A DNA stretch of 64,000 nt. Source: Streptomyces mesophilus (GTDB lineage Bacteria; Actinomycetota; Actinomycetes; Streptomycetales; Streptomycetaceae). The stretch covers positions 1 to 64,000 of the forward strand of contig NZ_JAAKZW010000015.1 in the NCBI RefSeq assembly GCF_011044995.1. Direction: 5' to 3'. Both the position numbers and the translations under genes were made by a program. The notes beneath the pieces are model-generated. The model did not search any database and had not been told where the DNA came from. It saw only the letters and a program-made list of their open reading frames with translations. Of this stretch, positions 21,353 through 22,833 are shown piece after piece. Position 1 is the stretch's first letter. Each line of letters begins with the position of its first letter.

Positions 21353-22357
21353 ATGAAGACCTTCCTGATCGAGAAGTACGGTGACCAGTCCGCGGTACGC
21401 GCCGCAAAGTCGCCCGATCCGCGACCGGGCCCCGAGGACGTCCTGGTCGAGATCCACGCCGCGAGCGTCAACCCGCTGGACTTCAAGATCCGCGACGGCG
21501 CGTTCAAGGCGATCCTGCCGTACCGCCTCCCGCTCATCCTGGGCAACGACCTCGCCGGTGTCGTGGTCCAAGTCGGCTCGGCCGTCACCCGGTTCGCGGT
21601 GGGCGACGAGGTCTACGCGCGCCCCGACAAGGACCGCATCGGCACCTTCGCCGAGTTGATCGCCGTCCACCAGGACGATCTGGCCCCCAAGCCGTCCGGC
21701 CTCACCATGGAACAGGCGGCCTCGCTCCCGCTGGTCGCCCTGACCGCCTGGCAGGCACTGGTCGAGCGCGGGCGGGTCCGGCCGGGCCAGAAGGTCCTGA
21801 TCCACGCGGGCTCCGGCGGAGTGGGCACCATCGCCCTCCAGCTGGCCAGGCACCTGGGCGCACATGTGGCCACCACCGCGAGCGCGGCCAACGCCGGCCT
21901 GGTCAAGGAGCTCGGTGCGGACGTCGTGATCGACTACCGCGCCGAGGATTTCGAGGAACTCCTGGACGGATACGACCTCGTCCTCGACACCCTCGGCGGC
22001 GAGATCCTCGACAAGTCCCTGCGGGTCCTCAAGCCCGGCGGGAAGGTCATCAGCATCGCCGGGCCTCCCGACGCGGACTTCGCCCGCGAGCTGGGCACCG
22101 GCCCGGTTCTCCGTCTGGCCATGAGCGCGCTGAGCTTCAGGACCCGCCGCCGCGCAAAGCGCCGAGGCGTCACCTACTCCTTCCTCTTCATGAAGGCCGG
22201 CGGCGACCAACTGCGCGAACTCACCCGCCTCATCGACGCCGGCGATATCCGGCCCGTCGTCGACCGCGTCTTCCCCTTCGGCCGGACCCGCGAGGCCCTG
22301 GAGTACGCCGAGCAAGGCCGCGCCAAGGCCGGCAAGGTCGTCGTCTCGATGGCGTGA
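21353..22357 (+). CDS. NADP-dependent quinone oxidoreductase-like (MDR family)
   Basis: Zinc-independent medium-chain reductase of 334 residues. The GroES-like N-terminal domain has VEIHAASVNPLDFKIRDG and LGNDLAGVVVQVGSAV. The Rossmann part has VLIHAGSGGVGTIALQLARH with the AGxGGVG cofactor motif, followed by VLDTLGGEILDKSLRVLKPG. No structural-zinc cysteine cluster is present, as in QOR/enoyl-reductase types. It is the second gene after the SDR and may share TetR control. Likely role: reduction of a quinone or enone. Confidence 0.9.
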   Translation: MKTFLIEKYGDQSAVRAAKSPDPRPGPEDVLVEIHAASVNPLDFKIRDGAFKAILPYRLPLILGNDLAGVVVQVGSAVTRFAVGDEVYARPDKDRIGTFAELIAVHQDDLAPKPSGLTMEQAASLPLVALTAWQALVERGRVRPGQKVLIHAGSGGVGTIALQLARHLGAHVATTASAANAGLVKELGADVVIDYRAEDFEELLDGYDLVLDTLGGEILDKSLRVLKPGGKVISIAGPPDADFARELGTGPVLRLAMSALSFRTRRRAKRRGVTYSFLFMKAGGDQLRELTRLIDAGDIRPVVDRVFPFGRTREALEYAEQGRAKAGKVVVSMA

Positions 22358-22461
22358 GGTCGGTTGGCCACGGACCGGCCCTGGTGGCCAACCTCACCGG
22401 CTTCGCCGCGGCCCCCGTACGACCGTTTGTGCGATCATGAAGGCAGAGCCCCAACCGGCTC

Positions 22462-22502
22462 CCGGACGAGGCGCACCGTACCCGGATTTTCGACGACGGT
22501 GC
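22462..22502 (+). promoter_or_regulatory. Guanidine-III riboswitch (ykkC-III class)
   Basis: A 41-base element with the conserved blocks of the guanidine-III class: CCGGACGAGG at the 5' end, GC-CCGTACCCGG in the middle and an ACGACGGTGC 3' end. Pairing is visible: GCACCG (22473-22478) with CGGTGC (22497-22502), and CCGG (22462-22465) with CCGG (22482-22485), giving an H-type pseudoknot. From memory it matches the Thermobifida fusca structure sequence over most positions and has the same length. A GAGGGAG ribosome binding site (22504-22510) follows at once, and the SMR exporter starts at 22519, so control is probably translational: guanidine present, gene on. Confidence 0.9.
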
Positions 22503-22518
22503 TGAGGGAGTCGTCGTC

Positions 22519-22833
22519 ATGGCATGGATCGTTCTGATCGTTTCCGGGATGCTCGAGGCCGTCTGGGCCACCGCACTGGGCAAATCCGAGGGGTTCTCCC
22601 GCGTCCTTCCCACCGTCGTCTTCGGCGTCGGACTCGTGGCGAGCATGGCCGGTCTGGCCTTCGCCCTGCGCACGCTGCCGGTCGGCACGGGCTATGCGGT
22701 CTGGGTCGGCATCGGCGCGGTCCTCACCGTCACCTACGCGATGATCTTCGACGGCGAGCCCGTCTCTGCCCTGAAGCTGCTCTTCCTGGCCGGCATCGTG
22801 GGCTGTGTAATCGGCCTCAAGGCGCTGCACTGA
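22519..22833 (+). CDS. gdx: SMR-family guanidinium exporter (Gdx/SugE type)
   Basis: Inner-membrane small multidrug resistance protein of 104 residues, four helices. The first helix has the essential Glu13 in MAWIVLIVSGMLEAVWATAL; the WAT-alternative with GKSEGF after helix 1, LPVGTGYAVWVGIGAV in helix 3 and the C-terminal ALKLLFLAGIVGCVIGLK are typical of the Gdx/SugE branch rather than the promiscuous EmrE branch. Proteins of this branch swap guanidinium for protons. The riboswitch directly upstream independently supports guanidinium as substrate. Works as a dimer; no paired SMR gene is visible. Confidence 0.9.
   Translation: MAWIVLIVSGMLEAVWATALGKSEGFSRVLPTVVFGVGLVASMAGLAFALRTLPVGTGYAVWVGIGAVLTVTYAMIFDGEPVSALKLLFLAGIVGCVIGLKALH

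Follow-up and report, generated by a model that had tools for sequence, protein, structure and literature searches.

Guanidine-III (ykkC-III) RNAs are regarded as translational ON switches, and an additional effect on RNase E is attributed to them (PMC12186494, PMC5696562). The T. fusca RNA, as described together with family RF01763 (PMC5696562), is a 41-nt H-type pseudoknot with the core ACGAGG / CCGUACCCGG, a P1 helix of four pairs, a P2 helix of seven pairs and a ligand pocket formed by C6, G7 and G17, and it is placed just before the ribosome binding site (RBS). Gdx-Clo (6wk5) and E. coli SugE are guanidinium/H+ antiporters of the small multidrug resistance (SMR) family. The locus analysed here, in a 64,000-nucleotide stretch of Streptomyces mesophilus (RefSeq assembly GCF_011044995.1, contig NZ_JAAKZW010000015.1, positions 1 to 64,000 of the forward strand; hereafter the window), shares all of the listed features of the T. 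fusca RNA and has an SMR gene downstream. The RNA is very probably a guanidine-III riboswitch and, as a translational ON switch, controls a Gdx-type guanidinium/H+ antiporter. The arrangement of RNA before exporter is itself ordinary: a riboswitch of known kind in its usual place.

Family match, helices and exporter gene

The RNA and its gene comprise the following features:

22443..22505, + strand: match to the Guanidine-III riboswitch family RF01763 (42.1 bits, cut-off 36, E 2.1e-5)
22446..22461, + strand: 5' hairpin of the Rfam model, GAGCC 22446-22450 / GGCTC 22457-22461, from the Rfam alignment; fold -7.1 kcal/mol
22462..22485, + strand: P1 of the pseudoknot, CCGG 22462-22465 with CCGG 22482-22485, 4/4 Watson-Crick
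22466..22479, + strand: ligand-pocket equivalents of T. fusca C6 and G7 (22467, 22468) and G17 (22478), counted from the first P1 base in the numbering of PMC5696562
22473..22502, + strand: P2 of the pseudoknot, GCACCGU 22473-22479 with ACGGUGC 22496-22502, a 7/7 complementary inverted repeat
22486..22495, + strand: J2 strand AUUUUCGACG, without the conserved AA of ACAAG (a gap in the Rfam alignment)
22519..22833, + strand: SMR exporter gene of Gdx (SugE) type, 104 aa; PF00893 75.1 bits, match to Gdx-Clo

Guanidine-III is the sole Rfam family above its cut-off in the window (cmscan, 4227 families). The alignment spans the full model (1-67 of 67) and starts 19 bases 5' of the pseudoknot core, and the same family gives a single match in the 9-Mb draft genome (E 7.2e-7). 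The original prediction, made from the sequence letters, had placed a 41-base H-type pseudoknot with the class blocks immediately before an SMR gene, with the RBS two bases beyond it, and had proposed a covariance-model search as a check. That search bears out the family, and the core at 22462-22502 is as described: its 41 bases hold all three class blocks (CCGGACGAGG 22462-22471, CCGTACCCGG 22476-22485 and ACGACGGTGC 22493-22502), both helices of the H-type fold pair throughout, and a Shine-Dalgarno (SD)-like GAGGGAG begins on the second base after the aptamer. The 5' extension of the Rfam match, with its hairpin, and the loss of the AA in J2 had not been part of the original prediction. The exporter gene starts 14 bases past the end of the Rfam match, so that the RNA forms its leader. 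The pocket residues C6, G7 and G17 and the core ACGAG / CCGUAC are present (numbering of PMC5696562). Two differences from T. fusca stand out. The J2 strand of its leader (L077) is UCAGGACAAG, and the AA before GACGG is missing in the window strand; the SD lies one base past the aptamer in the window as against 16 nt in T. fusca (PMC5696562). No Guanidine-I riboswitch was found in the S. mesophilus genome, and no RF01763 match near its two other SMR genes (contigs C35 and C207), the first of which starts 174 bases from its contig end.

The helices were compared across 149 distinct aptamers from 256 loci, aligned in a fixed register from which at least L087 departs in P2; these 256 were kept from 268 loci after 12 outside the aptamer pattern had been dropped, and 34 of them are without an accepted open reading frame. 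At P1, 84 aptamers have G-C and 65 have C-G at pair 3, and pair 2 is C-G in 146 and U-A in 3. At P2, pair 3 is G-C in 132, A-U in 8 (the window among these), A-C in 8 and C-C in 1. P1 pairing is thus kept through two-sided changes, which supports the pseudoknot helices. All of the P1 changes stem from the 150 genus loci, because the pattern by which the 118 named loci were fetched fixed P1 as CCGG; the search that gave the genus loci used a model in whose printed structure P1 is missing. The whole-leader minimum free energy structure is no more stable than that of shuffled sequences (157/200 fold as well, in a program that cannot represent a pseudoknot), and because the shuffles are equally stable it provides no evidence on structure. 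P2 pair 4 is C-G in 60 aptamers, as in the window, U-A in 2, and a C opposite an A, in mid-helix, in the other 87, including the common genus type (e.g. L011).

The protein encoded downstream supports a guanidinium exporter from its sequence, independently of the RNA. In a search against solved structures, Gdx-Clo aligns without gaps over residues 1-102 (6wk5; 86 bits, E 1.4e-23), as against 32.5 bits (E 7.6e-7) for the best EmrE-type chain, in agreement with the predicted Gdx type. The protein matches PF00893 and has E13, S42, Y59 and W62, the residues that mark the Gdx subtype, as well as W16, which is reported to be kept in Gdx proteins and to be Gly or Ala in Qac proteins (PMC7695847). The other two SMR genes of the genome are without W16, having Gly (contig C35) and Phe (contig C207) in its place. 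The window protein differs from Gdx-Clo in V63 for T63 and G58 for A58. SugE (NF008512) is the best of 21 NCBIfam models, at 92.1 bits, which is below the curated equivalog cut-off of 126 bits; the best Qac model scores 54.6. The original prediction had further proposed that the RNA fixes the function of the gene better than protein similarity alone. The RNA and protein lines agree at this locus, but the RNA does not by itself fix gene function, since other guanidine-III RNAs precede SMR genes with Met in place of W16 or genes of the Ohr family. Together the two lines justify the label of guanidine-responsive Gdx exporter for a gene that general family models name only SMR. Family, gene type and translational ON control, taken jointly, are highly likely.

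Proposed control of the ribosome site

Two further features bear on the mode of control:

22504..22510, + strand: Shine-Dalgarno GAGGGAG, from the sequence, 8 bases to the ATG at 22519
22492..22518, + strand: candidate OFF hairpin, GACGACGG 22492-22499 with UCGUCGUC 22511-22518, last pair G-U

An SD at the aptamer edge fits published accounts of guanidine-III RNAs (PMC5696562, PMC12186494). In the mechanism proposed here, the pseudoknot would be loose when guanidine is absent, leaving the 3' strand of P2 free to pair with the SD-AUG spacer, and the resulting hairpin would keep the ribosome site shut. The Hoogsteen edges of two guanines, the counterparts of G7 and G17, would hold guanidine. Binding of guanidine would close the pseudoknot and triplex and take the P2 strand back, whereupon the ribosome site would be freed and the exporter made. 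Binding of guanidine by this RNA and the direction of control are predicted from sequence. The P2 strand as the strand that closes the ribosome site appears in the cited literature as a prediction only.

The candidate OFF hairpin has 8 bp and an 11-base loop that contains the SD; GACGACGG runs from the last bases of J2 into the first of the P2 3' strand, and UCGUCGUC is the SD-AUG spacer. The duplex of the two in the window is predicted at -13.9 kcal/mol, equalled by 24/1000 spacer shuffles, and the local fold of 22487-22521 at -12.6, with 14/200 shuffles as good. Pairing tests were extended to 221 distinct leaders (235 of 273 entries kept) and to a clade of 16 hand-picked as relatives of the window SMR. 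Across this clade, spacer and P2 3' strand pair with a predicted mean of -11.7 kcal/mol, compared with -7.4 +/- 0.6 kcal/mol for shuffles (0/200 as good), and different members make the pairing with different sequences. Spacer shuffles are likewise surpassed in leaders of the common genus type and of other genera (0/100 in each). In both of these groups the predicted accessibility of the RBS drops when the aptamer strands are allowed to pair, the native difference being reached by 0/25 shuffle sets (30/107 leaders drawn for the common genus type, 30/101 for other genera). The J1/P2 5' strand was considered as another partner of the spacer and was set aside, as it does no better than swapped spacers in any group (1533, 1518 and 336 of 2000).

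A number of observations weigh against this account, beginning with the RNA itself. Its 42.1 bits lie close to the family cut-off, relatives reaching 69.2 among the matches listed, and the missing AA, present in 140 of the 149 distinct aptamers, could alter its affinity for the ligand. Folding predicts that the window SD is 0.52 unpaired without ligand and hence half open. The difference in SD accessibility with and without the aptamer strands is no larger than in shuffles (83/200), and for the whole SD-to-AUG region 108/300 shuffles show as large a difference, so that no significant switch is predicted for the window RNA. In the 13 leaders of its clade the native accessibility difference is reached by 4/25 shuffle sets. 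Spacers swapped within the clade are only mildly worse than the native ones for the P2 strand (136/5000 in the clade of 16, 217/2000 in that of 13). Competing partners are also available: CGGCUCCC (22456-22463) can pair with the SD at -15.8, a value that 267/1000 shuffles match, and GACGA (22465-22469) can pair with UCGUC, with 207/1000 shuffles as good. Complementarity is, moreover, not confined to one strand, since the J1/P2 5' strand also beats shuffles outside the clade (0/100 for both the common genus type and other genera; 7/100 in the clade). In-line probing is reported to find P1 and P2 of a guanidine-III RNA paired even without ligand (PMC5696562), which is hard to reconcile with release of the P2 strand in the OFF state. 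The OFF hairpin in the window RNA is therefore an even bet, retained on the clade-level complementarity, which is observed, and on the window's own 24/1000.

The same data allow a different OFF state, in which the 5' edge CGGCUCCC, which straddles the 5' hairpin and P1, would act as an anti-SD by pairing with GGGAGUCG (22506-22513) over the SD. This is the strongest single duplex in the window RNA, it has a pairing probability of about 0.25 in the free ensemble, and its native pairs are better than swapped ones in other genera (0/2000) and in the clade of 13 (29/2000). Nevertheless, shuffles are often as good in the clade of 16 (71/200) as well as in the window, swaps in that clade reach the native value in 351/5000, and a local hairpin of about -7 kcal/mol would have to break first. 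Swap tests across genera ignore relatedness, and their 0/2000 is accordingly not taken as proof. Anti-SD pairing of this kind is thus possible but doubtful as the basis of control.

Less probable again is that the riboswitch mainly shields the transcript from scanning by RNase E, with translation following. The weakness of the RBS switch predicted for the window RNA would suit such an effect. However, a single base separates the SD from the aptamer, and a pure effect on stability does not need a clade-wide complementarity between spacer and P2 strand that exceeds that of shuffles. RNase E shielding and translational control are in any case compatible and not mutually exclusive.

The shortened core strand

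Before the P2 3' strand, where the family has a conserved AAG, the window has CGACG, with two As deleted in the Rfam alignment. The AAG is a conserved feature of the RF01763 model and not a strict requirement. Nine of the 149 distinct aptamers, the window included, have a J2 strand that ends otherwise; the remaining eight are those of Streptomyces B-S-A6 and B-S-A12, two Pseudactinotalea, one Rhizocola and three RNAs linked to Ohr-family genes. The RNA could accordingly have kept the guanidine-III fold while changing its ligand preference or losing its function. In the T. fusca crystal structure A32 and A33 are described as part of a continuous stack before P2, and the window RNA is without both; the core nucleotides of guanidine-III RNA are reported to be over 97% conserved (PMC5696562). 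Set against this, the third strand is otherwise intact, as are the equivalents of C6, G7 and G17, the shortened strand recurs across the three genera named above, and in Streptomyces and Pseudactinotalea an SMR gene follows the shortened-strand RNA. The recurrence suggests that the shortening is tolerated, and altered specificity or loss of function is considered quite improbable.

For the preferred reading, a translational ON switch, the shortened strand may be of some interest. A rather unlikely possibility is that promoter motif, riboswitch and exporter form one small mobile cassette that has replaced the common genus version here and carries a shortened-core RNA whose GACGAC change is also complementary to the spacer GUCGUC. 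One sequence would then serve both the pocket and the switch. Guanidine binding by an aptamer without the AA, and the role of the P2 strand as switch strand, are modest new points that can be tested.

Distribution, surroundings and divergent relatives

RF01763 is found at E <= 0.001 in 168 of 199 congeneric genomes, above cut-off in 163. A pattern scan of DNA in the genome_contigs collection returned at least 118 stretches, by their titles mainly from actinobacteria and myxobacteria. A guanidine-III RNA stands directly before an SMR gene in many other genera, as well as in the 15 further clade leaders, of which one has a broken SMR frame. A chance family match in a GC-rich genome, to which a loose core pattern (<=1 mismatch) found at 8 further genome places, against 3 for a backwards control pattern, might point, is a negligible prospect given the whole-genome E of 7.2e-7, the SMR start just 14 bases after the match and an arrangement kept in relatives with SMR proteins 68-89% identical, this conservation having in practice already refuted it.

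By sequence, the window cassette is a minority lineage within the genus. Nearer relatives are Streptomyces sp. B-S-A12 and B-S-A6, with SMR proteins 89.4% and 86.5% identical, and a replicon of Embleya sp. NBC_00888 encodes one at 82.7%. Among the matches listed, eleven congeners follow at 68-74% and a few more at 55-64%. The common genus cassette (CCCGACGAGACGCGCCGUACCGGG, CCCGACGAGACGCGCCGTACCGGG), which most congeners carry and which accounts for 119 of the 256 aptamers, belongs to the same RNA family, also has an SMR gene downstream and also has a P2 strand complementary to the RBS spacer. It differs from the window cassette in its P1 (CCCG/CGGG), the C opposite A in P2, a longer gap before the SD and an SMR protein only 42-49% identical to that of the window among the matches listed.

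Upstream and downstream of the cassette lie the following features:

21353-22357, + strand: zinc-type oxidoreductase gene, upstream and on the same strand
22362..22393, + strand: 10-bp perfect hairpin GGTTGGCCAC / GTGGCCAACC, from the sequence; possible terminator just after the oxidoreductase gene
22429..22434, + strand: GTGCGA, within a conserved GTGNGA motif, 33 bases 5' of P1
Downstream, opposite strand: RibD C-terminal-domain gene

The region 22358-22398 folds at -21.9 kcal/mol, with 6/200 shuffles at least as stable, and has no T run; as a putative terminator, the hairpin within it may end the oxidoreductase transcript and set the riboswitch transcript apart. GTGNGA occurs at -32 to -38 from P1 in 15 of 16 related leaders, which are not independent of one another, compared with 101 of 6397 (1.6%) 30-base pieces of the window sequence. 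The motif is probably part of a promoter, which would place the transcript start near 22443. Six neighbours in the window had no match at 1e-5 in 25 related places, where the SMR was matched in 25/25; as 20 of the 25 related stretches extend no more than about 1.5 kb to either side, the test is weak for farther neighbours.

Among the 235 leaders, the SMR behind the guanidine-III RNA has Met at the W16 position in 20, of which 19 are from Actinomadura (L037, L039, L049, L051, L055, L058, L076, L078, L096, L102, L105 to L107, L120, L127, L128, L139, L144, L149) and one from Acrocarpospora (L099). Several of these leaders have a longer complement to the P2 strand, as well as CCGGGAG at the SD against CUCCCGG at P1. 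Tandem SMR pairs of the window type, whose members are 62-63% and 56-59% identical to the window SMR, occur in three congeneric genomes (G187, L292; G066, L294; G115, L295). In G187 a divergent guanidine-III RNA precedes the pair (L024, 52.4 bits); the congeneric genome search found no RF01763 at E <= 0.001 in G066 or G115 among the matches listed. A plasmid of Streptomyces sp. NBC_01445 (L311:3001-3366) carries a relative of the cassette with a broken SMR frame (two tblastn pieces), and its RNA gave no match reaching the Rfam RF01763 cut-off. In Streptacidiphilus, Dactylosporangium and Rhizocola, guanidine-III leaders (L062, with 57.2 bits, L064, L065 and L089) stand before short reading frames without resemblance to SMR; their first residues are, for example, QILGSVL or QLAGSLL.

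The most curious lead comes from loci outside the window. In 8 of the 150 genus loci (L164, L165, L230, L244, L245, L262, L263 and L264; see also L313:201-789), a guanidine-III RNA precedes a gene for an Ohr-family peroxiredoxin in place of an SMR. Searches of the paper library used here found no paper joining guanidine, riboswitch and OsmC, and none joining 'guanidine riboswitch' with 'organic hydroperoxide resistance'. Family membership was tested on the L313 protein (TIGR03561, 135.5 bits against a cut-off of 88.85; PF02566), the others being judged by their like translations, of which that of L263 was taken in a wrong frame. The gene starts about 110-120 bases after the first P1 base, behind a long leader, and the RNA in L164 scores 48 bits. 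These Ohr-linked RNAs, like that of the window, are without the core AA.
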